From Candidatus Poribacteria bacterium (GTDB lineage Bacteria > Poribacteria > DTPJ01 > WJIO01): a stretch of 25,922 nucleotides of DNA. The notes under the pieces were generated by a model. That model saw nothing but the letters and a program-made list of their open reading frames with translations, did not search any database and was not told the origin of the DNA. Of the stretch, positions 3,068 to 23,862 are shown piece after piece. Where the stretch lies: positions 1-25,922 of the forward strand of contig WJIO01000214.1 in NCBI GenBank assembly GCA_014730235.1, read 5' to 3'. Within the stretch, counting starts at the first letter, position 1. The number at the start of each line of letters is the position of its first letter. The position numbers and the translations under genes were made by a program.

Positions 3068-3184
3068 ATTAGACAAATATTAACTGCATCTTCATTTTAG
3101 ATTAACCATGAAATGTTATATTCGGTTGTCAAATGTATTATTTATGTTTCTGGCTTATTCAATACTCAATCCGGGGAGGATAAT

Positions 3185-8732: not shown

Positions 8733-9527
8733 CTATTCTTGTGTCTTAATTTCTGACCATACAGTAGCCATTTTCCCCTCTGATGAGACAGCCAAAACAC
8801 CTGCCATACCAGAATTCATAAGGGTTTTTATATCATCCTGTTCCAGGGCAACGTTGAAAATGGCAACTTCGTCAATGATTCCAGGAGTATAATATCCTGC
8901 CGCTCCGGCATTTGCCCCTCCGCCAATTCTAAAAGGCTGGGATGTGACGATAATCTCGCCGGAGAAATTAAGGGAACCGTCTTCCTCACCATTAACATAA
9001 AGGGTTAAAACATTTCCATCATAAACCTGGGCCACATGATACCACGTTTCAAGCTCGACGGTTGTACTTCCGTCAAAATAATTTGCAGTACCGTCTGAAG
9101 TCCATATATGCGCTCTGAATGTATTGACATCAGATGCTGTAAGCAAATACTGCCTTTCTGCGTTTTCACCGTCTTTGCTTAGTATATCCCGATGCGTATT
9201 TTCGTTGCCTGTTATATAAACCCAGCATGCCATGGTCATTTCATTTTTAGGATTCAATTCCTCTGAATCGGGTATTTCAACGAATTGATCCAGACCGTTG
9301 AAACTTAAGGCCTTGCCGGATTTACCGTCAACCCATTCCGCCCCATTGATTGTACCATCGGCATTTACACCTGAGGAATCCATTACTATATCTCCGCTTC
9401 CCTCGTCAAATAGCCAAACTCCAACACATGTTTGCATGTCAATTTCAGCGTAAAGCTGAAAGGTAAAAATCAAGCTAAGGAAAATTAATGTCGCACAAAA
9501 AATTAATCTTAAGTTCAATTTTTTCAT
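8733..9527 (-). CDS. Exported LamG (concanavalin A-like) protein with C-terminal W-x-x-I-K tag
   Basis: A 264-residue secreted lectin-like protein. The signal peptide runs to about A27 (MKKLNLRLIF...FQLYA). The rest is one LamG/ConA-like jelly roll: VGVWLFDEGSGDIVMDSSG, GKSGKALSFNGLDQFVEIPD, MACWVYITG, WYHVAQVYDGNVLTLYVNG and the closing GIIDEVAIFNVAL, all hallmark strands of this fold. After the domain a short linker leads to GKMATVWSEIKTQE at the very end, which matches the tails of three other exported proteins in this window. AAGGAG lies nine bases before the ATG. It is fourth in the minus-strand cluster, 22 bp after the dehydrogenase gene. It probably binds extracellular or surface glycans; no enzymatic residues were recognised. 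Confidence 0.9.
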   Translation of the reverse strand: MKKLNLRLIFCATLIFLSLIFTFQLYAEIDMQTCVGVWLFDEGSGDIVMDSSGVNADGTINGAEWVDGKSGKALSFNGLDQFVEIPDSEELNPKNEMTMACWVYITGNENTHRDILSKDGENAERQYLLTASDVNTFRAHIWTSDGTANYFDGSTTVELETWYHVAQVYDGNVLTLYVNGEEDGSLNFSGEIIVTSQPFRIGGGANAGAAGYYTPGIIDEVAIFNVALEQDDIKTLMNSGMAGVLAVSSEGKMATVWSEIKTQE

Positions 9528-9549
9528 TTTCAGCTACTCCTTATTAAAA

Positions 9550-10542
9550 TTAATTGTTATTTGAAAGCACTCCCGGATTCAGAAGGGATTTAGGTTTTTG
9601 TCCTTTAAGGACACGTAAAACTTCATCCAGGGCCAATTTTCTCAAATCCACTAGAGCATCTTCCGAATACCATGCAGAATGGGGTGAAAAGATTACGTTT
9701 TCAAATTCTGCCAGCCGGTTGTTGGGATCAAATGGAGGCACACCCTCTATTACATCCAGGGCTGCACCTGATATTTGCTCGTTTGACAATGCCTCTATCA
9801 AGGCTTCTGTGTCAATTAAACTACCGCGAGCGCAGTTGACTATTATGGGTCTGCGCTGCATTTTTTTGAAATACTCAGAATTCAGCAAATGATATGTCTT
9901 AGGGTTTGCTGGCGCATGCAGCAGTATAGCATCCGAAACTTTTGCCAACTCATCAAGAGAGACTTTTTTGAGGTTCAGATTTTCATCTTTAACATCTTCT
10001 TCACTTACATTGGGATCAGCGAAAACTATTTTGACTCCAAAAACCGATAACTTCATTGCCGATAGCCTGCCGATACGCCCCATACCAATAATACCCACAG
10101 TCATCTCCCTGATCCGACTCATGGGTTTAAGATAACTCAAGCTCCATTCTCCCTGGCGTATGCGTTTATCCGAAAGGGGAAGCTTTCTAAGCAGTGATAA
10201 CATGCTGGCTACTGTATGGTCGGACACCTCCTCACAGCAGTAATCCGGCACATTTGCCACCATTATACCATGCTGGGTGGCTGATTCTATGTCTATACTA
10301 TCTACTCCTATGCCATAACGGATTACAGCCTTGCATTTAGTCAACTCAGAAAAAGTCTGAGAATTCAGAGGTCTGAAATATGTATTCAATATAACATCAG
10401 CATCTCTTGCAATAGAGATAACGTCGTCCACGCTTTCACACTGGGCGATCACCAGTTCCGCGTTATTCTCAGCGAGGGTTGCACGTTCTGAATCCAGATC
10501 AGGAAAAACGTAATCAGTAACAGCAACCTTGAATTCTGCCAT
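9550..10542 (-). CDS. NAD-dependent D-2-hydroxyacid dehydrogenase (CtBP-like)
   Basis: A 330-residue cytoplasmic oxidoreductase interconverting a 2-hydroxy acid and a 2-oxo acid with NAD(H). The nucleotide-binding motif is G153-M-G155-R-I-G158, with D176 at the end of the second strand favouring NAD over NADP. The catalytic triad is visible as R239 (NCARGSLID), E266 or a close neighbour (LDVIEGVPP) and H288 (FSPHSAWYSE). The PHSAWYSEDAL segment and RYGIGVDSIDI are typical of the CtBP-like branch. AAAGGAGG precedes the start. Spacing of 16 bp after the sulfatase gene points to co-transcription. In this cluster it probably oxidises or reduces a sugar-derived acid released by the upstream enzymes; the substrate cannot be read from the sequence. 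Confidence 0.93.
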   Translation of the reverse strand: MAEFKVAVTDYVFPDLDSERATLAENNAELVIAQCESVDDVISIARDADVILNTYFRPLNSQTFSELTKCKAVIRYGIGVDSIDIESATQHGIMVANVPDYCCEEVSDHTVASMLSLLRKLPLSDKRIRQGEWSLSYLKPMSRIREMTVGIIGMGRIGRLSAMKLSVFGVKIVFADPNVSEEDVKDENLNLKKVSLDELAKVSDAILLHAPANPKTYHLLNSEYFKKMQRRPIIVNCARGSLIDTEALIEALSNEQISGAALDVIEGVPPFDPNNRLAEFENVIFSPHSAWYSEDALVDLRKLALDEVLRVLKGQKPKSLLNPGVLSNNN

Positions 10543-10558
10543 CCTGTAAATCCTCCTT

Positions 10559-11905
10559 TTAATTTGTATAAGGCACAGTTCCGTTTTTGTTGACCTTATA
10601 TCCCCATTTTCTAATATATTCCATTCCAGTTAAAAATTCATCTCCCCGGTCATCAAGTTTCTTTTTCAACCACGCTTCAAATTTCGCCTGTAAACTGGAG
10701 TATTCTGGCTTGTTAATAAGGTTTTTTAGCTGATAAGGGTCTTTCTGGTTATCATATAAAAGCCAGGGCCCTTCAATAGTGCGAACATAAGTATAGCGAA
10801 GGGTTCTTATACCCCTGTATTCTATACCACCTTGAGGCTGTCTTGCCCATTCGCCAAAAGGATGTGGACAACCTATTATACATGCGCCATCTGAGGGGTT
10901 TTCCCCGTCCTGCATATAACCCGAATAATCCAGACCTTCCACAGTATCAGGTATGGACATTCCACATAAACCCAGTAATGTAGGCATAATATCCGGCGCA
11001 TCTATTAGGGCATTAAGCTCTTTTGGTTCATTACCAAACATGGCCGGGTAACGAAGCAAAAACGGCACCCGGATTGATTCATCCCAGGGACGCTGTTTCC
11101 TCTGGTGCCCCTGAGAACCCAGCATATCCCCGTGATCCGATGTAAAGATAAAAATTGTGTTTTCCTCAATACCTTTACTACCAATAGTATCCAGAAGATC
11201 ACCAATACAGGCATCCAGAGCAGAACAATGGGCGTAATATCCCGCTATATCCTGCCTTGCCTTTTCTGCCATAGATTCGGTTACATTGGGACGCAGTTCT
11301 ATTTTATCCGAGTCATACATGGCTTTATATTCTTCCGGCGCGGTTTGGTATGGGTTATGGGGAGGCCCCCATGAAAGCATAAGCAAAAACGGTTTACTGT
11401 CATTATGATTGGTTATATAATCCTGAGCATCTCTGGTCTGTGCTATTGCGTCGTATTCTTCCCAATACAATTTTTCATCTGAGTTTCCTGAATAATATGG
11501 GGAGTTGTTATAATCGTGGGTGCATTCTAGCACCTTCCAGTAATCAAATCCCTGGCGGCGTTCAGGAGGTATATAATTTGACCTGCCATGGCCGTCAAGA
11601 TGCCACTTGCCGATATAGGCCGTATCATATCCCTCGCCAGCATAAGCGTCGGCTATACTTACCGCGTTATGACTTAGATATACATCGTTTACAAATACAC
11701 CGTGAGTCAACGGAAACTGACCGGTCATCAGGCTTGCTCGATAGGGTGAACATACCGGGCACCCGGATACGGCATTAACAAAATTCACGCTTTCTCCTGA
11801 TAAGGAATCCAGATTCGGCGTTTTTATCTGTTGGTTTCCTGCGTATCCCGCGGCATGGGCCCGCCATTGGTCTCCAAAAACAAATACTACATTTGGTTTT
11901 TTCAT
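10559..11905 (-). CDS. S1-family sulfatase (Cys-type, formylglycine-dependent)
   Basis: A 448-residue arylsulfatase-superfamily enzyme that removes sulfate esters, probably from a glycan. The signature C52-S-P-Y-R56 in CPVCSPYRASLMTG is the Cys-type site converted to formylglycine. Other landmarks are PNVVFVFGDQ (metal D12), GKWHLDG (K100, H102), PPHNPY (H183) and TSDHGD (D257, H258). The length is normal. There is no signal peptide: the protein starts MKKPNVVFVF, where the hydrophobic run is the first core strand, so the enzyme should act in the cytoplasm unless exported by an unusual route. No sulfatase-maturing enzyme is in the window. The gene starts 14 bp after the lectin/propeller gene ends and belongs to the same transcript. 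Confidence 0.93.
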   Translation of the reverse strand: MKKPNVVFVFGDQWRAHAAGYAGNQQIKTPNLDSLSGESVNFVNAVSGCPVCSPYRASLMTGQFPLTHGVFVNDVYLSHNAVSIADAYAGEGYDTAYIGKWHLDGHGRSNYIPPERRQGFDYWKVLECTHDYNNSPYYSGNSDEKLYWEEYDAIAQTRDAQDYITNHNDSKPFLLMLSWGPPHNPYQTAPEEYKAMYDSDKIELRPNVTESMAEKARQDIAGYYAHCSALDACIGDLLDTIGSKGIEENTIFIFTSDHGDMLGSQGHQRKQRPWDESIRVPFLLRYPAMFGNEPKELNALIDAPDIMPTLLGLCGMSIPDTVEGLDYSGYMQDGENPSDGACIIGCPHPFGEWARQPQGGIEYRGIRTLRYTYVRTIEGPWLLYDNQKDPYQLKNLINKPEYSSLQAKFEAWLKKKLDDRGDEFLTGMEYIRKWGYKVNKNGTVPYTN

Positions 11906-11919
11906 CTTTTCACCTTGGT

Positions 11920-13869
11920 TTAATCTTCGGGGCCGAATACATACATCTTGCCCTCTATTCCTATGCAGATATAGTCTGTCTTATCTTCTCCCATACGGTT
12001 AATTCCTGTGGATACAGCAGTTCTCAGTCTATCACCCCACAGCTTCTTAATTTCAGTTAGCTCCTTTACCCGACGTCCGTAACCGTCGTAAAAGGCCTGG
12101 GCACGACAAGTTGTGTTTGTCCATATAAGTTTAACGTCCATATCTCCCCACTGGACGGGTGTAGCGCCCTGACCTATATAATCGGGCTGGATAGTCCATA
12201 GCCTATCACCAAAGCCGCTAAACAAGGTAAGAATTCCCATATTACCCCATCTTGTAGCCGCCAGAATCTGCTCCCCTGGTATATCCTTCCGCACTTTACC
12301 TGTGTTACGCCCCTGGGCATGGCCTATGCGATGAACAGACCGAGTCTGTCCGGTGAGTCCATCAACCACATACAAACCTGCACTTCCAGCCAGCAAAAAA
12401 GCTACGGGATCAACATCCTCATCATCGGTATAATTATCCAGGGCAACCGCGTCATAATGCTGTCCGCCGGGTATACTCAAAACTTCCTCGTCTTTATCAT
12501 GAATCCACAGGATGTTACCATCGCCGTCAAACAGCGTACCTCCGGCCAAAAGCTCATCTCTACCGTCATTATCTACATCAAAAAACTGAACGGCGTAATG
12601 ATGACCATACCATGCACCTTTTAGCTCATGATGCCACAGGAGATTGAGATTCATATCATAAGCCCAAAGATTTATTCCCCCGCCGCCTTTATCATCCCGC
12701 CATTCCCGGAGCACTATATCAAATCCACCGTTACCAGTCATATTTCCGCTGGTCTGGGAATAATCGGGTCTTCTTATGGTTTCATGGAGTTCCGGCACTT
12801 TTCCTTTTGCTAATACTTCACCATCGGAACAGCGAATAACAATCATCTCATCAAAGACTACCATCCTACTCGCTTTACCCCTGATATCCCTTTGAGTCTT
12901 CATTTCCCTTGAGCCTGTAAAGCTGTATAACAACCTTCCTTCGTCATGAAAGTATTTGGAAAATACAGCGCCATGTATATTTAAGGGTTTCTCCCATAGC
13001 ACCTCACCTTCAACGGTCATGGCCCTTAGGCTTTTCTCCCCGGATATTAGCATATCATATCTTCCGGGTTTTATAAAGTCCATAAAAATTAGCGAACCAC
13101 CCAGTTCCCGGAGATCTATTGTCTTTATAAGAACTGCGTCAGGTATATTTTCACCCAGTTTCTCTTCCTTTTTGCTTATAATCCTTTGCCGCCGTTCATC
13201 TCGATTTGACTGCCATTGACTTTGCTTTATTGTAATAGAATCCAGACGGGAGCGACCAATGGAGCGAAAGCCTGCTTTACCGTATTTCATTGTAGTGTCT
13301 GTGCAGAAAAAGTTTACCCCCAGTTCATCACACTGACATTTGATGCCGTCACCGCAGGTAGAGATCCTTAGATTTAAATAGCCTTCTGGAACGTCAACCT
13401 TCTTTTCAGCCAGGGGAAACCATTCATCATCTATACGGCGATAAAGCACAGCGCGATTTTTGCCCTCTATACCAAAGTGATAATAGGCTCTGGATGTTTG
13501 TATTCTGAATACAATGCCTGTAAGAGCTTCCTTGCAATCGCTTCTGTCGTTATGTGGTGTAAAGACTGAATCTACTGGCATTACTCTGGCTTCAATGCTA
13601 CAATCCCGGAATTCCTTTTCCTCATATACCAGAGATCGATCCAGGCGATTTCCATTAAATAGAAGTATGTTTTCGTTTTCTTCCTCAATAACCTCTAAAC
13701 CTGAATCAAGATTAAAGCCACCCAAAGGTGTAAGGGGTGTTTCCCACCCTGAAAAATACTTTCTGTATATTTCTCCTCTTGGTTCTAAGGGCGGCAAAAT
13801 TTTCCCAAGCGGACAATTACGAAAATCCAGAGATGCGATAATATTTTCTGATTTAATCTTGCGTTTCAT
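11920..13869 (-). CDS. ConA-like/DUF1080-type domain fused to a beta-propeller (rhamnogalacturonan-lyase-like)
   Basis: A 649-residue protein opening the minus-strand cluster. The first 240 residues look like a concanavalin A/3-keto-disaccharide-hydrolase-type jelly roll: ILLFNGN, DCSIEARVMPVD, TGIVFRIQTSRAYYHFGIEG, LNLRISTCGDGIKCQCDELGV and a closing GKAGFRSIGRSRLDSITI. The remainder is a propeller with repeated DVDNDGRDELLAGGTLFDGDGNILW-type blades and further W-G-D-M-D segments, resembling the propeller of family 11 rhamnogalacturonan lyases. I cannot assign catalytic residues. GGAGGG precedes the start and a clear promoter lies 50-77 bp upstream. There is no signal peptide, which is odd for a calcium-loop propeller. 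It is probably a glycan-binding or lyase subunit working with the sulfatase. Confidence 0.8.
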   Translation of the reverse strand: MKRKIKSENIIASLDFRNCPLGKILPPLEPRGEIYRKYFSGWETPLTPLGGFNLDSGLEVIEEENENILLFNGNRLDRSLVYEEKEFRDCSIEARVMPVDSVFTPHNDRSDCKEALTGIVFRIQTSRAYYHFGIEGKNRAVLYRRIDDEWFPLAEKKVDVPEGYLNLRISTCGDGIKCQCDELGVNFFCTDTTMKYGKAGFRSIGRSRLDSITIKQSQWQSNRDERRQRIISKKEEKLGENIPDAVLIKTIDLRELGGSLIFMDFIKPGRYDMLISGEKSLRAMTVEGEVLWEKPLNIHGAVFSKYFHDEGRLLYSFTGSREMKTQRDIRGKASRMVVFDEMIVIRCSDGEVLAKGKVPELHETIRRPDYSQTSGNMTGNGGFDIVLREWRDDKGGGGINLWAYDMNLNLLWHHELKGAWYGHHYAVQFFDVDNDGRDELLAGGTLFDGDGNILWIHDKDEEVLSIPGGQHYDAVALDNYTDDEDVDPVAFLLAGSAGLYVVDGLTGQTRSVHRIGHAQGRNTGKVRKDIPGEQILAATRWGNMGILTLFSGFGDRLWTIQPDYIGQGATPVQWGDMDVKLIWTNTTCRAQAFYDGYGRRVKELTEIKKLWGDRLRTAVSTGINRMGEDKTDYICIGIEGKMYVFGPED

Positions 13870-13917
13870 GAATACCCTCCATTTCCAAAACCTATTTCAC
13901 CCGGACTGGTTTTAACT

Positions 13918-13946
13918 ATAATACCTCTTTTTTTCTATTGTGGCAA
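13918..13946 (-). promoter_or_regulatory. Sigma70-type promoter of the minus-strand glycan cluster
   Basis: On the minus strand TTGCCA (13946-13941), a 17-nt spacer and TATTAT (13923-13918) lie about 49 bp before the first start codon at 13869. This supports one long transcript running to about 7842. Confidence 0.65.
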
Positions 13947-14203
13947 GACAATCATGTCTAAAGAAAGTGTTCCAAGTTAGTCGGTCATTTAACAATAATC
14001 TTTCATTGTTCTGAGAATTCCACTAAACCCCGCTTTATCAAAGCTGAGGGTAAGATCTTCACCCGCTTAGAATGGCAAATGTGAAAGTTATCAGAATATC
14101 AGTCCGTTTTTTTAACTGCATAATTGACCATGGATTTATATTATATCATCTTTCCAGTATCATACCATAAAATTAAAAAGCCCTGAGAGTTTCTGGACAA
14201 ACC
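13947..14203. other. Non-coding region between divergent promoters
   Basis: About 257 bp, increasingly A/T-rich toward 14160. I see no gene, no strong palindrome and no convincing regulator site. A short CCACTAAACCCC at about 14019 faintly echoes the repeat at 1848 and 2074, but the match is too short to call. Confidence 0.4.
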
Positions 14204-14232
14204 TTGACAACAGTAAAAGCTTATTATATGAT
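14204..14232 (+). promoter_or_regulatory. Near-consensus sigma70 promoter
   Basis: TTGACA (14204-14209, perfect -35), a 17-nt spacer and TATGAT (14227-14232). The expected start of transcription is about 14239, 38 nt before the permease ATG. This is the closest match to consensus in the window. Confidence 0.75.
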
Positions 14233-14276
14233 ATGCTTATCTCGTTTATCTGGTGAAATTCTGGAGTTTAATTATA

Positions 14277-15065
14277 ATGTTAAATCCTATTATGGTAAAA
14301 GAACTTCGTATACACAGCCGTCGGACGATACTATACTGGGTAGGTCTTATTTATTTACTGATGGTATCAATATCTGCCTGTATATTGATATGGCAATACA
14401 AACTGATTGATCCTTTAAATGACATCTTGGTAACCAGCCGAAGTGTTTTCGTTGTATTTACCACTATAGCAGTGGTAATTAATTCCTTTGTTTCTCCATC
14501 AATTGCTTTGCTTATAATAAACGCAGAAAAGGATATCTCTTATCTGGATTTTCTGAAACTAACTCGACTTAAATCATACCAGATATTATCAGGAAAATTT
14601 ATTTGCTTACTTTTTTATACAATTCTGGTAAATTCCCTTTCTGCACCTGTTATTATGCTTCTGGCCAGTTTTTCCGGTGTTTCTATCTTTGGTGTTGCCA
14701 GGTTTTATTTGATAACTATATTTTGCAATATAACCTTTGGTTTTGTTGGAATATCTTATTCTGCAATATTTAAGAGAATAAAAACTGTAGCCATTTTGAC
14801 TTTTGCAACAACCGTTTTTTTCTTATTCGGAACTCTTATGATGAAGCCTGTTTTAAGACAAATTTTGCGTTCCAGAAATATTATAGCAGAAAGTATATTC
14901 AGAGGACTAAATCCAATACATGCTACTATTAATATACTGGATCCCAGGGATACGTCTAAAGTTGCTGGCTTGTCTTTATGGTTGTTTTTAATTATATCTT
15001 ACCTGTTTTTGATTATTGTATTTTCAATAATTGCAAACTTTAAGTTGAATTTAGTAGAATCTTGA
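14277..15065 (+). CDS. ABC-2-type transporter permease
   Basis: A 262-residue integral membrane protein with six predicted hydrophobic helices: the first starts near LYWVGLIYLLMVSISACIL, then VVFTTIAVVINSFVSP with SIALLII, a pair between LICLLFYTILV-like and IFCNITFGFVGIS stretches, AILTFATTVFFLFGTLM, and the last LWLFLIISYLFLIIVFSII. It opens MLNPIMVKELRIHSRR, the typical cytoplasmic start of ABC-2 permeases. ATG 14277 is chosen over GTG 14253 because GGAG lies ten bases before it and the family start fits. No ATP-binding subunit is adjacent, so its partner must be encoded elsewhere; the transported substrate is unknown. The next gene starts two bases after its stop. Confidence 0.8.
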   Translation: MLNPIMVKELRIHSRRTILYWVGLIYLLMVSISACILIWQYKLIDPLNDILVTSRSVFVVFTTIAVVINSFVSPSIALLIINAEKDISYLDFLKLTRLKSYQILSGKFICLLFYTILVNSLSAPVIMLLASFSGVSIFGVARFYLITIFCNITFGFVGISYSAIFKRIKTVAILTFATTVFFLFGTLMMKPVLRQILRSRNIIAESIFRGLNPIHATINILDPRDTSKVAGLSLWLFLIISYLFLIIVFSIIANFKLNLVES

Positions 15066-15067
15066 TA

Positions 15068-15592
15068 ATGTATTTTAACCGCAGGGAACAAAGGATTGTC
15101 ATTTTTATAGGATTTGCGGCTGTACTGGCAATATCAATATTAGTTGTAAAGATTTTAGAACCAGGTGTTTTTTTAAGTTTTTCCACAGGAATGCCTGTAT
15201 CTATTTCTGGATCCAAATATAAGTTAATTGAAAACACATCAAGTCAACCCGATGGAAAAATTGAAGAGGATAGTAAAAATTCTCCCGGGAGCATTGATGA
15301 CAGGATCAATATTAATACTGCCAGCAAAGATGAACTTGAAAGCCTGCCGCGAATCGGGCCTGTTTTGGCCGGTAGAATAATAGATTATCGAAATGAATAC
15401 GGACTTTTTGCCTGTATAGAGGAGATTATTAATATTCATGGTATAGGCGATAAAACTCTTGAAAAGCTCAGAAACTTTATAACTGTAGAAAATCAATCTA
15501 CAAATCAGGGGAAAAAAATAAATGAAATATACAAAAACAGAAAAAACATTAATAGAAGCAATGGAAGAAATGGAAATAGTGGATGCTCATGA
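15068..15592 (+). CDS. ComEA-like helix-hairpin-helix DNA-binding membrane protein
   Basis: A 174-residue protein with a short basic N-terminus (MYFNRREQR), one membrane anchor (about 9-30), a polar linker and a ComEA-type double helix-hairpin-helix domain (about 80-140): ININTASKDELESLPRIGP, ILDYRNEYG-like and IHGIGDKTLEKLRNFI. ComEA binds incoming double-stranded DNA at the cell surface during natural transformation. The hydrophilic tail after residue 140 (rich in N, K and R) has no counterpart in the domain and is partly encoded inside the start of the next gene, which it overlaps by 71 bp. ATG 15068 follows the permease stop so closely that translation is probably coupled; no strong Shine-Dalgarno site is seen. 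The nearby pilin gene may share the DNA-uptake role. Confidence 0.8.
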   Translation: MYFNRREQRIVIFIGFAAVLAISILVVKILEPGVFLSFSTGMPVSISGSKYKLIENTSSQPDGKIEEDSKNSPGSIDDRININTASKDELESLPRIGPVLAGRIIDYRNEYGLFACIEEIINIHGIGDKTLEKLRNFITVENQSTNQGKKINEIYKNRKNINRSNGRNGNSGCS

Positions 15593-16751
15593 GCATCTGC
15601 CGCCGGAGAAAGTTCGCACCGACGCAAAAGTTGATGCTTTGACCTTGTTTTCTCATTATACCCGGACTGATCTGATTACATCCGGAATGAGTAGTGAGAA
15701 TTACAATACGATTATAGATTCAGAAAAACCTCTGGATGAAAGATGGAAGATGTTTGAGCCGCATCTTGAATATATCCGATATGGTTCTTATGCCCAGCCA
15801 GCCTTTATCGCGGCAAAGGAATTCTATGGTTTTGATGATATTAACGGCAGTAATTACAAGGAATTGTCCAAAAAGATGCAGGAAATGAATACTCCTGGTA
15901 TCTATAATAGAATACTAAGGGAAAAATGTAAGATTCGAATAGCCCTGACCCAGACGGGAAGCACCGATTACCAGGGGGATTTGCTTATCCCGCTAATGCC
16001 ATTGGACAGTTACGCAGGAATAAGGTCTGCTGAAGATGTGTCAAAACGGGCTGATTCTATGGATATGACCGTATCAAATTTGGATGACTATCTGGAACTT
16101 GCGAAGAAAGGTGTGGCAAAACTTAAATCAGAAGGTGCTATAGGTCTTAAGATGGCTTCTATTCCCAATTCACCACCTTCCCGGGAAGCGGCAGAAAAGG
16201 TTTTCAGGGATATTATGGCAGGCAAAAAATCCTCAGAAACCAGTAAACTGTGGGACTTTTTAATGAATTACCTGCTTGATGTAGCCGCTGAAATGGATAT
16301 GGTGGTAGCTGTCCATGCCGGAATGTGGGGTGATTTCCGCCAATTGGACTCAAAACATATGATACCTGTATTTCCGAGACATCCCAATACGAAATTTGAC
16401 CTTTATCATCTCGGTATGCCTTCAGTCAGAGACACAATTGTAATAGGAAAAAATTTCCCTAATGTCTGGTTAAATATATGCTGGTGTCACATAATTTCCC
16501 AGCAGATGACATGCTCTGCATTGGACGAATGTATTGATATGGTTCCCATGAACAAAATAATTGGCTTTGGTGGAGATTATAACAGGCCAGTGGAGAAGGT
16601 ATATGGACATCTCCTTATGGCCCGGGAAGATATAGCCGCTGTTCTTGGACGAAGAATAGACCGGGAAATGATGAGTATAGACGAAGCAAAAAATATAACC
16701 AAAAAATGGCTCTGGGATAATCCCAGAGAACTATATAAATTGTCTATATAG
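15522..16751 (+). CDS. Amidohydrolase-2-type metal-dependent hydrolase
   Basis: A 409-residue TIM-barrel metallohydrolase of the amidohydrolase superfamily. Metal-binding and catalytic positions are D21-A-H23-E-H25 after the first strand, K210 (AIGLKMASIP), H265 (VVAVHAGMW), H296 (DLYHLGMP) and D352 (GFGGDYNRP). The length and the HLPPE and WLWDNPRELY ending fit amidohydrolase-2/uronate-isomerase-like members, which act on cyclic amides, lactones, carboxylates (decarboxylation) or uronic acids. The start at 15522 is supported by AGGGGA upstream, even though it lies inside the preceding frame. No signal peptide. It ends 11 bp from the convergent pilin gene. A role in handling a sugar-derived acid is plausible in this glycan-rich setting, but the substrate is not visible. 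Confidence 0.88.
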   Translation: MKYTKTEKTLIEAMEEMEIVDAHEHLPPEKVRTDAKVDALTLFSHYTRTDLITSGMSSENYNTIIDSEKPLDERWKMFEPHLEYIRYGSYAQPAFIAAKEFYGFDDINGSNYKELSKKMQEMNTPGIYNRILREKCKIRIALTQTGSTDYQGDLLIPLMPLDSYAGIRSAEDVSKRADSMDMTVSNLDDYLELAKKGVAKLKSEGAIGLKMASIPNSPPSREAAEKVFRDIMAGKKSSETSKLWDFLMNYLLDVAAEMDMVVAVHAGMWGDFRQLDSKHMIPVFPRHPNTKFDLYHLGMPSVRDTIVIGKNFPNVWLNICWCHIISQQMTCSALDECIDMVPMNKIIGFGGDYNRPVEKVYGHLLMAREDIAAVLGRRIDREMMSIDEAKNITKKWLWDNPRELYKLSI

Positions 16752-16762
16752 GGAGCAGATTT

Positions 16763-17230
16763 TTATTCATATTCGTTGGTATGGGTTATATTTCCATTAT
16801 TATCCAGAGTCCATGTATCAAAAGGTGCTCCATCATCTTTAAAATCGCTCATGGCGGTAATGATAAATGCTGTTTTAATATCAGGATTTCCATTTACCTG
16901 ATATTGATACCTTACCTGAGCACCATCAACATTTGCACCAAAACCCAGACTCTCCCAGTTTCCTCCGGGATTACCCCATACCTGGGCTGTTGAAGGAACA
17001 TCAGCAGGATGAGGTGGGAGAGTGATAAACTGGTCGTTTGTGCCTTTATAAGCTAACTCAAGAGTTCTTATAGCGTGCATATTTCCTGACACTTCAGCAG
17101 TTTTTGCTCTGTTTTGAATCCTTTTGTATATTGGACTGCCGATAGCCATTAATATACCCACGATAGTAACTACTATCATTAACTCAATAAGACTAAAACC
17201 TTTATTTTCATTTCTATTGTATTTAATCAT
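16763..17230 (-). CDS. Type IV pilin / pseudopilin-like protein
   Basis: A 155-residue prepilin. The leader MIKYNRNENKG is cut by prepilin peptidase before F12, giving FSLIELMIVVTIVGILMAI, the classical N-methylated pilin helix with Glu at mature position 5 (E16). The globular part contains NRAKTAEVSGNMHAIRTLELAY, the usual alpha-1 continuation, and a beta-rich C-terminus. There are no Cys pairs, so the disulphide D-loop of some pilins is missing. GGAG lies seven bases before the ATG, and a sigma54-like promoter lies upstream. It stands alone in its orientation; no pilus assembly genes are in the window. It could be a type IV pilus subunit or a type II secretion pseudopilin. Confidence 0.9.
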   Translation of the reverse strand: MIKYNRNENKGFSLIELMIVVTIVGILMAIGSPIYKRIQNRAKTAEVSGNMHAIRTLELAYKGTNDQFITLPPHPADVPSTAQVWGNPGGNWESLGFGANVDGAQVRYQYQVNGNPDIKTAFIITAMSDFKDDGAPFDTWTLDNNGNITHTNEYE

Positions 17231-17279
17231 AAGCCGTCTCCATTTTGCCTGGTAAAAGTTTCAAGATGCTTATTTAATT

Positions 17280-17295
17280 TGCAATTATTATGCCG
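17280..17295 (-). promoter_or_regulatory. Sigma54-like promoter of the pilin gene
   Basis: On the minus strand CGGCAT, five bases, then TTGCA: it matches the -24/-12 consensus (TGGCAC-N5-TTGCA) at GGCA and all of TTGCA, with GG and GC ten bases apart. Transcription would start about 38 nt before the pilin ATG. Pilin genes are often RpoN-dependent, which fits. No sigma70-type box of comparable quality was found for this gene. Confidence 0.5.
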
Positions 17296-17378
17296 AAAAT
17301 CCGAATAAGAAATATAATATATTAGATATTGTGATAAATAAAGGTATAACAACGCATTATGGTGGATACAGAACTTAC

Positions 17379-17407
17379 TTGAATTTAAATTTGATAACTG
17401 TTATGTA
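17379..17407 (+). promoter_or_regulatory. Possible sigma70-type promoter of the second glycan operon
   Basis: TTGAAT (17379-17384), a 17-nt spacer and TATGTA (17402-17407), about 140 bp before the Nudix gene. The remaining intergenic sequence (17231-17550) is A/T-rich and shows no gene or strong palindrome. Confidence 0.4.
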
Positions 17408-17550
17408 TTCATTTTTCTTCAATCTATTTTAATAACCGATCATTTTTTGAAGAATCATGTTTATCTAAAGGGTCACGATAGAGTATATCGGTAGAAAAGT
17501 TATTTTACCTGAATATTTTTCCACCTTTATACCAAAAAGGATCAAGAGTA

Positions 17551-18129
17551 ATGAAAGTTAAAATAATTAAGGAAACCAGAGAGTTTGACGATTTCCTGAA
17601 AGTTGACAAAGCTGTATTAAAACACGAAAAATTCAATGGTGAAATGAGTCATGATATGGTCCGCTTAAATCTCAACCGACCTGATGCTGTTGCTGTATTA
17701 TTGTATGATGATAAAAAAGACTCAGTTATCCTTGTAAAACAGTTTAGATATCCAGCCTATGTAAATAACGGACCGGGATGGATTCTTGAGTTAGTGGCAG
17801 GAATAATAACTGATGGTAAAGATAAAATATCCACTGCTAATGCGGAGTTGATGGAAGAAGCTGGTTATGAAGTGGAAAAATTACAATATATAAACACTTT
17901 TTATCCCAGCCCCGGCGGATCATCGGAAAAATTGCACCTCTATCTGGGAATTGCACCGCGCAAGGTTAATACAGGCGGTGGGTTACCAGAAGAACATGAA
18001 GATATTCAAGTAGTAGAAATGTCGTTCACCAAGGCTATGGAAATGATAGAAACCGGGGAAATATGCGATGCAAAGACCATAATCGCTCTCCAATGGCTGA
18101 TGTTAAAAAAGCTGGAAATGGAGGATTAA
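17551..18129 (+). CDS. Nudix hydrolase (NudK/ADP-ribose pyrophosphatase-like)
   Basis: A 192-residue Nudix pyrophosphohydrolase that splits a nucleotide sugar or ADP-ribose into NMP and sugar phosphate. The Nudix box runs from G84 to Y106: the catalytic E99, E102, E103 and G105 are kept (AELMEEAGY), but the first Glu is K90 and the Arg is A98. Degenerate boxes of this kind are seen in NudK-type GDP-mannose pyrophosphatases, and the flanking ELVAGI, SPGGSSE and TGEICDAKTIIAL segments match that branch as I know it. It opens the second glycan operon, with one base separating its stop from the lyase start, so it may process an activated sugar linked to that pathway. AAGGATCAAGAGT precedes the ATG. 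Confidence 0.88.
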   Translation: MKVKIIKETREFDDFLKVDKAVLKHEKFNGEMSHDMVRLNLNRPDAVAVLLYDDKKDSVILVKQFRYPAYVNNGPGWILELVAGIITDGKDKISTANAELMEEAGYEVEKLQYINTFYPSPGGSSEKLHLYLGIAPRKVNTGGGLPEEHEDIQVVEMSFTKAMEMIETGEICDAKTIIALQWLMLKKLEMED

Positions 18130-18130
18130 A

Positions 18131-20464
18131 ATGGAATTTCTCGAGAAAAAGAATAAAGACAGGATGTTATTTCCGCGCCCTATTGACGGCGCGATAGTAA
18201 ATATAACCCCACCGGGATTGGCCTGGTTACCAGCCGAAGGTTCTTCAGGTTATCGGGTCGAGATAAGAAATAAAGCGAATGGGCTGATTTATGAAAAATC
18301 TATAGGCAGCGATCCTGTTCATCTTCCAGACCAGATTTTTCCCTCTGGTGAGTATGAATGGGATGTGATTGCCCTGGATGATAATGCAAATGATTCTGCT
18401 CGAAGGGGTTTGCAGACGTTTATAATTCCTGATAAAGCTCCGGAACTTCCCTGGATTGATCCGGAAGAACTTTTATCAAAAGTACCGGAAGGGCATAGCC
18501 GGCTTCTTTATCCTGCAAGCAAGTTACCTGAAATTCGACAAACTCTGGAAACTACCCGAAAGCAGGGATGGGAAGCCCGTCTCAAGGCTGCGGAAAAATC
18601 CCTTGATATGCCAGCACCGGAATATCCTAACTATCATCTTATTGATAATCCAAAGCGATGCCGCCTGGAATACAGCAAATACTTCGGCGACTTCAGGAGA
18701 TACATTAACGGTGCCTTGATGAACCTGTCTCTGGCATATCTTATGACTGAAGAGGATAAATATGCAGAGGCAGCAAAGCGAATACTATTGGAAGTCACCC
18801 GGTGGCCCACAGACGACCAGGATGTTACATCGGTAAGGGCTAAATGGGGTGATGAACCGGGTTTAAGTATGTCTAGATGTGCCCATCGGGCCTATGACTG
18901 GCTTTATCATGCTCTTACTGATGAAGAACGTTCTCAGGTGTTGAAAATGTGTGAAGAAAGGGCATGGCAGACCTATCGTCGTCTGAAAGGTATGGATTAC
19001 CTGACCAACCCCGGTTCAAGCCACGACGGGCGGCTTATTGCATATCTGTCAGAAATGGCAATTGTAATGGCCAGGGAATCCAAAGGGGCTAAGACATGGC
19101 TGGATTATTCCCTCAAAGCCTTAACTACATTCTATCCTCATTGGGGAGGATATGAAGGTGGATGGGCTGAGGGTGTTCCCTATGGATTATGGTATAACGA
19201 ATTTTATATACCGGCCTTTGAAGGTCTAAGGATGACCACTGGCTTTGACCTTTGGAAGCGTCCATTTTTTAATAATGTCCGCTATTTTTTCTTTTACTGT
19301 ACGGCTATTAGAGGGGAAATCAGGCCCTTTGGTGATGGTGCTGAAAGAGGTGGCCCGGGAATAAGCGGAGGCAGCGGTTATGCTTCGTTATTATGGTATC
19401 ATGCCCACAGATTTAATGATCCCTATATAGGATGGTGGGTTGATCAGATACAGGGATGGAATCGTGATTATGGGGAATTGACTTTGCTCTTTGATGACAA
19501 AGCAGCATCCACACCGCCTGAGGATCTGCCTGATTCGCGAGTTTTCAGAGGTGTAGGCTGGGCGGGACTACATGGAGATATGTGTAATCCGGATGAAGAT
19601 ACATTTCTGTTATTTAAAAGCAGTCCATACGGAAGCGTGTCCCATAGTCACGCAGACCAGAATTCCTTTTGTATTATGAAAGGTGGTAAAGCTCTGGCCA
19701 TAGCTTCAGGTTATTATGGTCCAACTTACGGTATGCCACACCATGCAGAATGGACAAGATCAACAAAAGCGAACAACTGTGTCCTGGTAAATGGTGAAGG
19801 TCAGGCCATAAGAAAAGCTAAAGCCAATGGTAAAATAATGACTTTTGAGGAAAGAGCTGGTTTAACCTACGTTTCGGGAGATGCTACTCCGGCCTATATG
19901 GGTAAGTTGGAACAGTTTCACAGGCATATATTGTTCCTGAGACCAAATTTATTCCTTCTGCTGGACGATTTAAAAGCACCTGAACCATCATACTTCCAGT
20001 GGATGCTCCATGCCTTTGACCGGATGGAGCTTGACGAAAAGAGAAACAGTATCAGATCCATGCGGGAAAATACAACCCTGGATGTATACCTCAAATCTCC
20101 AGCCGGGATCGGGCTAAGTCAAACAGATGAATTTGATACACCCTATAACGCGGGGATCCCAAAAGATTATCACAGGAACATGTCAAAGCAGTGGCATGTA
20201 ACCGCTGAAACGCGAACAAAACTCCGGGATACCCGAATTGCTGGGATTATGTATACCAGCATGAATAAAGATAAATTCAACCTGGAATTACTCGAAATGA
20301 AGGGATGGTTTGGGGCCAGGGTTACAAGCAACTGTGGACAGGTGGAGGGATGGATTCAGATTATCCCCGGTATACCCGGGCCAGATAACTATGACTCATC
20401 AGTAGCTGAGGGAAAATCAATTTTGTGCGGCAAAGCTGTTGATGGTGAAACTTTTGTTTTTTAG
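18131..20464 (+). CDS. Heparinase II/III-family polysaccharide lyase with DUF4962-like N-terminus
   Basis: A 777-residue lyase-like protein. The first 110 residues form a beta-sandwich (PPGLAWLPAEGSSGYRVEIRN ... GEYEWDVIALD), as in DUF4962. Then comes an alpha/alpha toroid (about 120-430) with WGDEPGLSMSRCAHRAYDWLY, H298 in GSSHDGR and Y351 in EGVPYG as candidate catalytic residues, and a C-terminal heparinase II/III beta-sandwich with the S504-H-S-H-A-D509 motif. This architecture cleaves uronic-acid glycans (heparan- or alginate-like) by beta-elimination. There is no signal peptide, while heparinases normally act in the periplasm or outside. GGAGG lies upstream, inside the end of the Nudix gene. 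The exact substrate is unknown; the sulfatase cluster nearby suggests sulfated host or algal glycans. Confidence 0.85.
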   Translation: MEFLEKKNKDRMLFPRPIDGAIVNITPPGLAWLPAEGSSGYRVEIRNKANGLIYEKSIGSDPVHLPDQIFPSGEYEWDVIALDDNANDSARRGLQTFIIPDKAPELPWIDPEELLSKVPEGHSRLLYPASKLPEIRQTLETTRKQGWEARLKAAEKSLDMPAPEYPNYHLIDNPKRCRLEYSKYFGDFRRYINGALMNLSLAYLMTEEDKYAEAAKRILLEVTRWPTDDQDVTSVRAKWGDEPGLSMSRCAHRAYDWLYHALTDEERSQVLKMCEERAWQTYRRLKGMDYLTNPGSSHDGRLIAYLSEMAIVMARESKGAKTWLDYSLKALTTFYPHWGGYEGGWAEGVPYGLWYNEFYIPAFEGLRMTTGFDLWKRPFFNNVRYFFFYCTAIRGEIRPFGDGAERGGPGISGGSGYASLLWYHAHRFNDPYIGWWVDQIQGWNRDYGELTLLFDDKAASTPPEDLPDSRVFRGVGWAGLHGDMCNPDEDTFLLFKSSPYGSVSHSHADQNSFCIMKGGKALAIASGYYGPTYGMPHHAEWTRSTKANNCVLVNGEGQAIRKAKANGKIMTFEERAGLTYVSGDATPAYMGKLEQFHRHILFLRPNLFLLLDDLKAPEPSYFQWMLHAFDRMELDEKRNSIRSMRENTTLDVYLKSPAGIGLSQTDEFDTPYNAGIPKDYHRNMSKQWHVTAETRTKLRDTRIAGIMYTSMNKDKFNLELLEMKGWFGARVTSNCGQVEGWIQIIPGIPGPDNYDSSVAEGKSILCGKAVDGETFVF

Positions 20465-20480
20465 TATGAGGAGGTAACAA

Positions 20481-21248
20481 ATGATTAAAACTTTTTTTGT
20501 CACAATTACTTTCTGTCTGTTTCTGGTTTTCTCAGTGTTTCCTGCCGATGATTCTTTAATACTTTACCTTAGTCTTGATGAAGGCCAGGGTAATGTGGCT
20601 AAGGACTCATCAAACCATAATAACGACGGTGAAATCGTAGGTAACACAAACTGGGTTGACGGTAAATCCGGTAGCGCAGTGGAATTTATTAGCGGTTCGT
20701 ATATAATAATGCAGGAAATACCGGAATACGACGTGACAGACGCAGTCAGTCTTATGGCATGGGTCAAAACAAACTCAGTAACTACCTGGGCCAGGGTTAT
20801 TGATAAATCCCAGTGGCAGGATAACGGATTTGATCTGGCCTTAAGTCAGGCTACTCATGCTCCGTTATTTGAGTTCTTCGTCAATAATACCACATCCCAG
20901 GCCCTGGGTGTTACTCCTGTTGATGATGGTGATTGGCACTTTATCGCTGGTACATTCGGAAATAAAAAGTTAAGGATATATGTGGATGGTGTCATGGAAA
21001 CAGAAGTTACTTCAGCCAATGAAGTAGACATCAAACCCAACGATTGGCCCATAACTATAGGTGTAGAAGCCAATAATCTGACCGGACAACCCTATGTTGG
21101 GGTTATTGATGAAGTCGCTATTTATAACCGGGAGTTATCGGCAGACAATATAGAAAGCATATTCCAGAACGGCATTGACATGTCATCACCAGTTGATCGT
21201 AAGGATAAAGTTACAACTGTATGGGGTGATATAAAAAAGGTGCTATAG
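20481..21248 (+). CDS. Exported LamG protein with C-terminal W-x-x-I-K tag
   Basis: A 255-residue secreted lectin-like protein. Signal peptide to about A22 (MIKTFFVTITF...VFPA), then one LamG jelly roll: ILYLSLDEGQGNVAKDSSNHNNDG, WVDGKSGSAVEFISG, SLMAWVKTNS, WHFIAGTFGNKKLRIYVDG and GVIDEVAIYNREL. It ends DKVTTVWGDIKKVL (242-255), the same tail motif as in the LamG protein of the minus-strand cluster, although the two domains are only distantly alike. GAGGAGG precedes the start, 16 bp after the lyase stop. It probably binds the glycan handled by this operon at the cell surface or outside. Confidence 0.9.
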   Translation: MIKTFFVTITFCLFLVFSVFPADDSLILYLSLDEGQGNVAKDSSNHNNDGEIVGNTNWVDGKSGSAVEFISGSYIIMQEIPEYDVTDAVSLMAWVKTNSVTTWARVIDKSQWQDNGFDLALSQATHAPLFEFFVNNTTSQALGVTPVDDGDWHFIAGTFGNKKLRIYVDGVMETEVTSANEVDIKPNDWPITIGVEANNLTGQPYVGVIDEVAIYNRELSADNIESIFQNGIDMSSPVDRKDKVTTVWGDIKKVL

Positions 21249-21277
21249 TTATCAATACTTATAGTGCCGGGAGTAAT

Positions 21278-22432
21278 ATGAATATTAAAAATTCGACAGC
21301 AAAGGTCGTAAAAACCGAAGGCTTCCGGATAACAGTAGAAGAAGCTTCACAATGGAGTAACCTTTTTAAAAGACATGAAGGCTGGACAGGTGCTGATGGA
21401 ATCTATTCTATACCTCTATCAGGATATGAGGCACAAGGAAAAGCCGATAAAACGCAAACCTTATTTGTCTTTAGTGATACTTTCATTGGTCAGATAGATC
21501 AGGAAACCACAAAAAGGCAGAATTTCTGCATGATCAATAACTCTCTTGCCTTATTGGGTGGAGACATACCTGATAATGACCAGATTCGTTTTATATGGGG
21601 TAAAAACGGCGACGGAAGTAGATCGTCAGTATTTACACCTGAAACAGCAGGCACAAAAGGCAAAAAGTGCTGGTATTGGTTACAGGATGGAGTTTTTCTT
21701 AATGGTAATGTGTATATCCTGCCTATGGTAATTGAATCAGGTCCATCCGGAAAAGAAGGCTTCAAATTCAGGCTTAGCGACTTGGCAATGATTAAAATCC
21801 CTGTAAGCTCAAACGTTCCCGATTTGCAGAAACATACTCAGGTAGATACCCCATTTTTGCATATAAATGAGGTTCGCACCCTGTATTTCGGGGCAGGAAT
21901 AATGCCGAATACAGTTGAGGCAGACGCGCCAAAACCCGATGGATACGTTTACATTTACGGTAGGTATGAGGCAGGAGAAATAAAGCTGGCCGTTGCCCGT
22001 GTAAAACCGGAAGATTTCGAGGATTTCAGCAAATGGCGTTTCTGGGACGGTAAAATATGGTCAAGCGAGATTGCAGATACTGTTCCATTGGGCAGAGGAG
22101 GTCCTGAACTCAGTGTAACACCGGTACAAAGTGGACCATTAGAAGGAAAATACCTGATGGTATCAATGCACGTGGAACGCGATTTATATATCCGGATTGG
22201 TGAAAGTCCTGTTGGGCCTTTTAGCCCAAGGATCAACATTTTCCGCACCAGCGAACCAGATACAGGACAGAAGATATACACCTATAATGCAAAAGCCCAT
22301 CCAAACCTTTCTAAGCCTGATGAGTGGTTAATCTCCTATAATGTCAACTCAACCGATTGGCAAAACCACATCGATAATGGTCATATATATCGTCCGCGTT
22401 TTCTGAAAGTGAAATTCATTCAGGATAATTGA
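21278..22432 (+). CDS. Five-bladed-propeller glycosidase-like protein (DUF4185/DUF5005-like)
   Basis: A 384-residue protein resembling DUF4185/DUF5005 families, which share the five-bladed propeller of GH43/GH117/GH130-type glycosidases. Telling segments are GADGIYSIPLSGYE, TLFVFSDTFIGQID (the acidic residue in the first blade), MINNSLALLGG, WYWLQDGVFLNGNVYILP, TPFLHINEVRTLYFGAG, YVYIYGRYE...LAVARVKPEDF, SVTPVQSGPLEGKYLMVSM and YNAKAHPNLSKPDEWLISYN. These give a regular blade pattern over the whole length. There is no signal peptide and no W-x-x-I-K tail. It closes the second glycan operon, 29 bp after the LamG gene, and is probably the oligosaccharide-cleaving partner of the lyase. Catalytic residues and substrate cannot be fixed from sequence. 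Confidence 0.7.
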   Translation: MNIKNSTAKVVKTEGFRITVEEASQWSNLFKRHEGWTGADGIYSIPLSGYEAQGKADKTQTLFVFSDTFIGQIDQETTKRQNFCMINNSLALLGGDIPDNDQIRFIWGKNGDGSRSSVFTPETAGTKGKKCWYWLQDGVFLNGNVYILPMVIESGPSGKEGFKFRLSDLAMIKIPVSSNVPDLQKHTQVDTPFLHINEVRTLYFGAGIMPNTVEADAPKPDGYVYIYGRYEAGEIKLAVARVKPEDFEDFSKWRFWDGKIWSSEIADTVPLGRGGPELSVTPVQSGPLEGKYLMVSMHVERDLYIRIGESPVGPFSPRINIFRTSEPDTGQKIYTYNAKAHPNLSKPDEWLISYNVNSTDWQNHIDNGHIYRPRFLKVKFIQDN

Positions 22433-22438
22433 GTCACA

Positions 22439-22481
22439 AAGCAGAAGGGCAAATCTTATTATAAGATTTGCCCTTCTGCTT
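22439..22481. terminator. Bidirectional terminator hairpin
   Basis: A 21-bp perfect inverted repeat (arm AAGCAGAAGGGCAAATCTTAT) around a single central T. It sits between the convergent genes ending at 22432 and 22515 and is flanked by A/T-rich sequence on both sides. Confidence 0.85.
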
Positions 22482-22514
22482 AAATTTTACACATTAATTC
22501 TAAAGTGCCAAAAA

Positions 22515-23180
22515 TCACTTAATCTCTGCCCATTTTACAGCAAGTTTGCCTTCAGGTTTAACAGCCATAGGAACAAACATAAGTGTTGTTGGTTCAAGCC
22601 AATCAACTGACCAGTTGTCTGATGCGCCTTCCTGGAAAGCCGATAAAGCAATAGTATCGCCTTCATTTACACCTATTACATCTTCGGGAACCATTGCTTC
22701 CATAGAATCACCTTCGGATGCAAAATCAAAATTTTCCATCATTAATTCTTCGGTAAGCGCGTCGTAGATCTCTACACCGTTGGGATTTCCGTCTCTCCAT
22801 CCCACCATAACAACCACGTCAACACCTATAGGATCTACATCTGTGGGGTTTCCCTCGTATTCAGAATTTTCAAATCCGGTATTTATGTTATCATCAGTAT
22901 CCAGAATCCAATGATAATAATACCTGTTAGTCATACCTGCCGGAGTTTCATCCATTGCTGGCGTAATTGTACCGTAAACAGTCATACGAAGGTAAAGGTT
23001 GCCCTCTTCATAGACAGCTTGAATCATTTTAATATCGCCGCTGGAGTCGGCCATGTCTTCATCATCATCAATCTTTGTAGGTACCTGCGCCCAATCGTCA
23101 AAATTTCCATCAATTGTCATTGCCAGACTGATGCTACAAAACAAAGCCAACATTATTATTGTGATAAGATTTTTAATCAT
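22515..23180 (-). CDS. Exported CBM9/DOMON-like protein with C-terminal W-x-x-I-K tag
   Basis: A 221-residue secreted protein. Signal peptide MIKNLITIIMLALFCSISLA, then TIDGNFDDWAQVPTKIDDDEDM, the typical opening of CBM9-like carbohydrate- or heme-binding beta-sandwiches, followed by SSGDIKMIQAVYEEGNLYLRMTVYG and YYYHWILDTDDNINTG, the aspartate-rich strand of the same fold. No catalytic residues are expected. The protein stops with GKLAVKWAEIK, the shortest form of the tail shared with three other exported proteins here, so the motif itself is the C-terminus. TAGGAGGG precedes the ATG. It is 25 bp after the partner gene at 23206, so the two are co-transcribed. Confidence 0.87.
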   Translation of the reverse strand: MIKNLITIIMLALFCSISLAMTIDGNFDDWAQVPTKIDDDEDMADSSGDIKMIQAVYEEGNLYLRMTVYGTITPAMDETPAGMTNRYYYHWILDTDDNINTGFENSEYEGNPTDVDPIGVDVVVMVGWRDGNPNGVEIYDALTEELMMENFDFASEGDSMEAMVPEDVIGVNEGDTIALSAFQEGASDNWSVDWLEPTTLMFVPMAVKPEGKLAVKWAEIK

Positions 23181-23205
23181 TTTTCCCTCCTAATTGATTA
23201 AATAA

Positions 23206-23862
23206 TTAAAAGCTTTTTACCATACCCCAGGTAGAAGCCAGCTTTTCCTGCGGCTCCACCGTAGTTTTCGGTATGTTCGGGCCTTCAATGCTGAGATCGT
23301 CAACAGCCATGATCGCGTTCCAGACTCTAAGACCTATCATGCCTGTTTCCAGTTGATCATCCTCCCATTCCCCCATATCTTCACCATCTACATAGAATTG
23401 GAAATGGTTTCCCTCTACCACAAGTTCCAACTCATATTCAGTTTCCACCTGTGTTTCAAAAGGCACAGGATTTATCGGTAAACCACCGTTCATCCATGCA
23501 CCGTTTATACAGCCGCAGTAACCGATCCTTTGATCCATCCTGATGCTGATTACATAGAATAGATCATTTCTGGCACAACGCCATACAAAGCCAATATTAT
23601 CCGCCGAACCTTCCAGAAGCCATGCTTTACACTTGATTACACAATCTGTCCAGTCCATATCACCAATAACAGCTATACCACTATTTGTATTAGCCTTTCT
23701 GAGTATATATCTTCCGTCCTCAATTTTACCTTCACCATCAAGTATCTGCCAGTCATCCGCCTGGCCGGGATCCTCAAAATCGTAAAAAAGCGCTAACGCT
23801 GACTTGGAAAAACCTGCAAAAATCATAAAGACAACCAGTAAAAATAAAGCCCTTTCTTTCAT
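23206..23862 (-). CDS. Exported ConA-like (DUF1080-type) lectin protein with C-terminal W-x-x-I-K tag
   Basis: A 218-residue secreted protein. Signal peptide to about A24 (MKERALFLLVVFMIFAGFSKSALA), then a single concanavalin-like jelly roll: FYDFEDPGQADDWQILDGEGKIEDGRYIL, DCVIKCKAWLLEGSADNIGFVWR, FYVISIRMDQRIGY, YELELVVEGNHFQFYVDGEDMGEW and GMIGLRVWNAIMAVDDLSIEG, as in 3-keto-disaccharide-hydrolase/DUF1080 domains. It ends EKLASTWGMVKSF (206-218), with Val in place of the usual Ile of the shared tail. A purine-rich CAAGGGGG lies before the ATG. The domain resembles the N-terminal part of the 649-residue protein at 11920-13869, here as a free exported unit. Confidence 0.85.
   Translation of the reverse strand: MKERALFLLVVFMIFAGFSKSALALFYDFEDPGQADDWQILDGEGKIEDGRYILRKANTNSGIAVIGDMDWTDCVIKCKAWLLEGSADNIGFVWRCARNDLFYVISIRMDQRIGYCGCINGAWMNGGLPINPVPFETQVETEYELELVVEGNHFQFYVDGEDMGEWEDDQLETGMIGLRVWNAIMAVDDLSIEGPNIPKTTVEPQEKLASTWGMVKSF

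Follow-up and report, generated by a model that had tools for sequence, protein, structure and literature searches.

A short C-terminal tag shared by small exported proteins of different folds throughout Poribacteria, a putative post-export sorting or docking signal

Four exported proteins encoded in a 25,922-nt stretch of DNA from a Candidatus Poribacteria bacterium (contig WJIO01000214.1; this whole stretch is the window, and the genome that holds it is the own genome) have different bodies and end in the same short C-terminal tag, which contains two fixed Lys residues, a Trp and a preceding Val (Table 1). This analysis confirmed that the tag is real and that it is present phylum-wide in Poribacteria, far beyond the window, and it showed that the tag is portable, C-terminal in position, nearly exclusive to exported proteins, conserved throughout the phylum and independent of the fold of the protein that carries it. 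As judged from sequence, the tag most likely serves to sort or dock proteins after their export, through a putative receptor, and we consider the chances about even that it is a portable recognition tag for small exported proteins that would be read by one receptor and by which these proteins would be sorted or fastened at the surface. The original prediction, made from the window, had described the four tails, the differing bodies that precede them and a Val five residues ahead of the first Lys. All four proteins and their tails were found as described, the Val proved to be a fourth near-invariant position, and Pfam assigned Laminin_G_3 to two of the bodies, 3keto-disac_hyd to one and no family to the protein at 22515-23180 (no match at 0.01), whose body matched TIGR04145 weakly and under the cut-off.

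The core of the tag was searched as K-[LIVM]-[ASTC]-x2-W-x2-[LIVM]-K with a degenerate DNA pattern (AARVTNDCNNNNNNNTGGNNNNNNVTNAAR), and the reversed pattern served as the control. The tag is not due to chance, because the own genome contains 58 pattern matches, which include the four tails of the window, compared with 3 for the reversed control. Furthermore, all 84 Poribacteria genomes searched carry the pattern, with 14-104 matches each and 4,697 matches altogether (140 for the reversed control), in agreement with the original prediction, in which similar tails were ascribed to Poribacteria LamG proteins. Poribacteria, which have not been cultured, are dominant symbionts of sponges and also live outside them. 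When a stricter pattern was scanned over about 85,000 prokaryote genomes, 112 of the 114 loci among the matches listed were labelled Poribacteria and came from many different sources. The other two listed loci lie in metagenome-assembled genomes (MAGs) labelled Planctomycetota and Deltaproteobacteria; one of them (L123) encodes a normal tagged protein, and the other (L144) an esterase with the tag in a different frame from the body. Both loci are probably explained by mis-binning or transfer, because their host MAGs, with two pattern matches each, are at about the control level and lack genome-wide enrichment. In the phylum to which the Planctomycetota-labelled MAG belongs, 119 genomes gave 107 matches compared with 125 for the control.

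At the protein level, we used the window together with 60 further stretches of the own genome, 880 kb in total, in which open reading frames (ORFs) were called by a crude picker; these loci were selected for the tag or for LamG, which biases the proportions upward. This sample contained 86 distinct tagged proteins of at least 120 aa. With a 20-position profile and a threshold of 20 bits, 85 C-terminal tails were detected (88 when weaker tails were included) and no internal tag site among 745 genes. In 219 kb that had been fetched mostly for genes of the type IX secretion system (T9SS), 3 of 133 genes were tagged. A signal-peptide-like N-terminus, as called by a simple hydrophobicity rule, was found in 82 of the 86 tagged proteins compared with 146 of the 543 untagged proteins, and among the four tagged proteins without such a signal, three resemble upstream miscalled starts and one is truncated by the end of its stretch. 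The enrichment at the C-termini of signal-peptide proteins that had been proposed as a check was thus observed, and internal or cytoplasmic occurrence, which had been named beforehand as one outcome that would speak against a signal, gave way to a near-exclusive presence on exported proteins. The tagged proteins are also small: 84 of the 86 have fewer than 300 aa and none exceeds 370 aa, whereas 40 of 88 untagged exported proteins have more than 400 aa.

The consensus built from 246 tails of the own and other genomes, a set chosen by profile, is [AP]-V-[ED/S]-[PA]-x-[GD]-K-L-[AT]-T-T-W-[GA]-x-[IVLM]-K, followed by 0-12 residues (mode 3, usually 0-5), and the length of the tag is about 15-18 residues. 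The Trp is present in all 246 tails, partly as a result of selection since the set was picked by profile, the last Lys in 243, the first Lys in 236 and the Val in approximately 239. Among 160 tails from other genomes, the first Lys was replaced by Arg in only 2. Because residues past the motif favour Arg over Lys, the preference for Lys within the motif is specific, and because Arg almost never replaces Lys there, recognition by a protein pocket rather than by charge is favoured. A PDZ-like mode, in which the last residue is read, is unlikely, because the distance from the motif to the free carboxylate varies. All synonymous codons are in use within the tag and vary freely, which indicates selection on the protein level and rules out a DNA-level element such as a recombination site or a terminator.

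The residues that follow the motif bear on two further points of the original prediction, which had held that the tag lacks both a hydrophobic helix and a basic end. No hydrophobic transmembrane helix was found after the motif, where polar or basic residues occur instead. The claim about the basic end had to be given up, since 207 of 691 residues after the motif (30%) are K or R, without a preceding helix, and K or R is the final residue in half of the proteins. These basic residues, the Lys-rich motif, its invariant Trp and the short helix modelled by AlphaFold2 would suit a cationic amphipathic peptide that merely binds the membrane or lipopolysaccharide. However, generic membrane binding tolerates exchanges of the kind that are almost absent for Lys to Arg and absent for the Trp in the 246 tails, and the hydrophobic moment, with peaks at 110 and at 150-160 degrees, does not decide between helix and strand and thus gives no clear preference for a helix, so that we regard such a peptide as very unlikely.

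The proteins that carry the tag differ widely in their bodies. Pfam matches of the 86 tagged proteins comprised Laminin_G_3 (55), 3-keto-disaccharide hydrolase (6), F5/8 type C (2) and CBM9 (2), and a Kelch protein and an esterase of the alpha/beta-hydrolase fold were also among them, while tagged proteins in other loci included a CBM9, a WD40 and a phosphotriesterase-family protein. The carriers therefore include the unrelated folds of jelly rolls (a fold search identified the LamG body as a lectin-type jelly roll), CBM9, Kelch, WD40, alpha/beta hydrolase and TIM barrel. The phosphotriesterase-family protein at L245:2644-3738 has an N-terminal twin-arginine motif and a variant tag, AVSPGGKAVSTFGKVKGGK, with Phe in place of Trp. 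When two proteins of the window were modelled with AlphaFold2, the tag was placed beyond a disordered linker and outside the folded domain in both the LamG protein (start Met omitted; mean pLDDT 90, roughly 52-57 for the tag) and the DUF1080-like protein (mean pLDDT 62, about 35 for the tag). Furthermore, when the 86 tagged proteins were aligned (mean identity 13%), 4 of the 7 invariant or near-invariant columns came from the V, K, W and K residues of the tag; for the DUF1080-like protein, these residues account for 4 of the 9 columns that are invariant among seven divergent relatives.

That the tag has no separate function, and is either left over from a common ancestor or the final strand of a fold, is hardly credible. 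The 55 LamG proteins among the 86 tagged proteins could share one tagged ancestor, but the tag is found on unrelated folds, is better conserved than the bodies, is modelled outside the fold, and is absent from long LamG proteins (0 of 4 in the sample, compared with 55 of the 58 short LamG proteins). The unrelated folds and the AlphaFold2 placement rule out that the tag is the final strand of a shared fold, the second outcome named beforehand as speaking against a signal, and the untagged long LamG proteins rule out a tail intrinsic to LamG. The argument of the original prediction that common descent of the whole protein does not account for the tail was therefore well founded.

An element that is portable, terminal, restricted to exported proteins and composed of fixed, spaced residues in free surroundings has the features expected of a many-to-one sorting or docking signal. 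In the mechanism that we propose, a tagged protein would exit the cytoplasm by Sec, or rarely by Tat, and would fold in the periplasm, where a flexible linker would expose the tag. One dedicated receptor would then recognise V-x4-K-L-[AT]-x2-W-[GA]-x-[IV]-K and would sort or fasten the protein at the outer membrane or cell surface, and many lectin-like heads and some enzymes would in this way share a single address label. The tag is probably read after translocation, because export by Sec and apparently also by Tat is tolerated. Of the new sorting, anchoring or docking signal postulated in the original prediction, the portable, fold-independent C-terminal tag on exported proteins is now established, and the reading by a single receptor, with surface sorting or anchoring as its outcome, is what we infer from these properties.

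Several points weigh against this mechanism. Clustering of 1,664 genes around tags gave ordinary families only, and the search for a co-occurring gene family, such as a sorting enzyme or receptor, that had been suggested with the original prediction yielded none by neighbourhood. A phytanoyl-dioxygenase-like family adjoins tagged genes in 5 of 5 cases, in a small sample and with many families compared. Phylogenetic profiling cannot name a partner, because the tag is found in all Poribacteria genomes searched. In addition, the calling of signal peptides and the picking of ORFs were both simple, and part of the conservation within the LamG paralogs could be due to common descent.

Alternatively, the tag might be a docking peptide through which the lectins and enzymes that carry it are attached to one shared scaffold or coat protein, in the style of dockerin and cohesin. 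One small tag is common to many carbohydrate-binding heads and some enzymes, tagged genes often adjoin other tagged genes (108 of 247), and the invariant, spaced residues suggest a protein pocket, all of which would be expected of a docking peptide. However, no scaffold was found, and the dockerin and cohesin domains of the genome lie in an untagged protein, so that docking of this kind is unlikely. That protein (L071:8394-11264; 956 aa, exported) combines LamG, cohesin and dockerin with a T9SS-like C-terminal domain (CTD). Type I dockerins of the cellulosome resemble the tag in that they are small C-terminal modules able to attach lectins and enzymes to one scaffold. Dockerins are calcium-binding folds of roughly 60 residues, and the Pfam matches listed for the 86 tagged proteins do not include the dockerin model.

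As the original prediction had maintained, the tag lies outside the known classes of tripartite signals and T9SS CTDs. The PEP-CTERM, GlyGly-CTERM/rhombosortase and LPXTG signals are, like the tag, C-terminal signals of the many-to-one type and occur on exported proteins with unrelated domains, but they consist of a transmembrane helix followed by basic residues; a short basic terminus is common to the tag and the tripartite signals, whereas the helix before it is found only in the latter. MYXO-CTERM of the Myxococcota, the signal for myxosortase, likewise occurs throughout its phylum at the C-termini of dozens of Sec-exported proteins in each genome, and it leads to surface localisation (PMC11980579). 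It differs from the Poribacteria tag in its tripartite structure of a Cys motif, a transmembrane helix and an Arg-rich end, since the Poribacteria tag has neither Cys nor a hydrophobic helix. In a search that did not cover rhomboid- and CPBP-type enzymes, sortase (PF04203) was found in none of 81 Poribacteria genomes and exosortase (PF09721) in 3 of 81. The absence of the helix and of the enzymes rules out the LPXTG/sortase and PEP-CTERM/exosortase systems. No NCBIfam model matched the tag in the eight tagged proteins that were run, and the literature searched, which did not extend to most subscription papers, gave no description of it.

The type A and B CTDs of the T9SS are also C-terminal signals of Sec-exported proteins in diderm bacteria. 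However, these CTDs, including the short ones of Prevotella intermedia, are beta-strand domains of at least 43 residues with motifs B, D and E, whereas the tag is unstructured or helical and has a different motif. The CTD families TIGR04183, PF18962 and PF13585 gave no NCBIfam match in the eight tagged proteins and were not among the listed Pfam matches of the 86, and the lack of a CTD match and the different size rule out that the tag is a T9SS CTD. A study in 2014 reported sorting domains of the T9SS in Poribacteria but none of its structural genes (PMC3909097). In our profile searches, a SprA-like ORF of ~2,200 aa was found in 80 of 81 genomes, under the curated cut-off in all but one (the copy in the own genome, L205:4643-11536 on C368, scored 182 bits to TIGR04189, with a cut-off of 200). 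The PorV family was above the cut-off in 81 of 81 genomes, with 8-24 matches each and 25 in the own genome, and Peptidase_C25 was found in 39 of 39 genomes. A search for GldM had no match anywhere and is thus uninformative on GldM. By these matches, Poribacteria carry putative divergent outer-membrane components of the T9SS, contrary to the 2014 study. Genes for multi-membrane-spanning DUF6785/DUF6784 proteins are numerous (L205:2648-4567, L206:8733-12683, L236:4751-6670 and L161:1495-3495, the copies in L206 being assigned from end similarity only) and adjoin the sprA-like gene, lie near the porV/C25 pair and are found beside some tagged genes (7 of 17, not significant).

The tag could accordingly be regarded as a minimal signal of the T9SS type, in which case a SprA-like translocon and one of the many PorV-like shuttles would carry tagged proteins across the outer membrane, perhaps with processing by a C25 (PorU-type) sortase. 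Such a role would agree with the wide occurrence of these components, with the location of porV beside a C25 gene in the own genome (L236:8779-15680), and with a weak correlation between PorV copy number and tag count (rho 0.35), which is confounded by completeness and kinship. Nevertheless, we consider it unlikely, because ordinary T9SS/FlgD-like CTDs are carried by large, untagged exported proteins, and because PorV genes adjoin such large proteins with T9SS-like C-termini or C25 genes, not tagged genes, in most of the loci read. Moreover, the SprA matches are mostly below the curated cut-off, and the tag, without a beta-sandwich, has about 18 residues compared with 43-55 in the shortest CTDs reported (PMC11969387). 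Tagged proteins have no CTDs, while large proteins carry them. Therefore, the T9SS-like route appears to serve large cargo, and the tag appears to be a second, separate class of C-terminal signal. Tentatively, and with less than even confidence, we propose that the tag may belong to a new sorting or display system of Poribacteria, composed of the helix-less tag, a putative outer-membrane receptor and a coat made up, in each cell, of dozens of diverse lectin-like proteins and enzymes, which would operate in parallel to the T9SS-like route.

Other exported proteins are encoded in the window and elsewhere in the own genome. A 1,554-aa fusion of PQQ/BamB-type propellers, a methyltransferase-like segment and a malectin domain (3113-7777 of the window) has no tag, and two small exported paralogs without a Pfam match (2125-2505 and 2577-2960) are untagged, as had been claimed for them. 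In another locus of the own genome (L090 on C434, 3851-8316), an exported curlin-like cluster with Asn/Gln-rich repeats adjoins two tagged LamG proteins.

Table 1. Tagged proteins of the window and their C-terminal tags (positions in the window)
Feature	Position	Strand	Evidence
Exported LamG protein, 264 aa	8733..9527	-	ORF; Laminin_G_3, E 8e-33, best LamG match of the genome; tail ...AVSSEGKMATVWSEIKTQE
C-terminal tag VSSEGKMATVWSEIK-TQE	8736..8789	-	pattern match 8745-8774; in AlphaFold2 a separate low-confidence helix beyond a disordered linker
Exported LamG protein, 255 aa	20481..21248	+	ORF; Laminin_G_3, E 8e-28; tail ...PVDRKDKVTTVWGDIKKVL
C-terminal tag VDRKDKVTTVWGDIK-KVL	21192..21245	+	pattern match 21207-21236
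Exported DOMON/CBM9-like protein, 221 aa	22515..23180	-	ORF; tail ...AVKPEGKLAVKWAEIK
C-terminal tag VKPEGKLAVKWAEIK, extreme end of the protein	22518..22562	-	pattern match 22518-22547
Exported 3-keto-disaccharide-hydrolase-like (DUF1080) protein, 218 aa	23206..23862	-	ORF; PF06439, 29.1 bits (cut-off 26.8); tail ...TVEPQEKLASTWGMVKSF
C-terminal tag VEPQEKLASTWGMVK-SF	23209..23259	-	pattern match 23215-23244

The tag, which every Poribacteria genome searched contains and which is absent from the protein-family libraries tried, marks a whole class of proteins; in each genome it is found on dozens of exported proteins that bind carbohydrates. It offers a handle for annotation, as one pattern flags over 4,600 sites, and also for proteomics, since trypsin cleavage at its two lysines yields a characteristic peptide. 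If the tag is a sorting signal, no such short type is known from other bacteria, and the receptor of the tag would contribute to understanding how the surface of Poribacteria is built.

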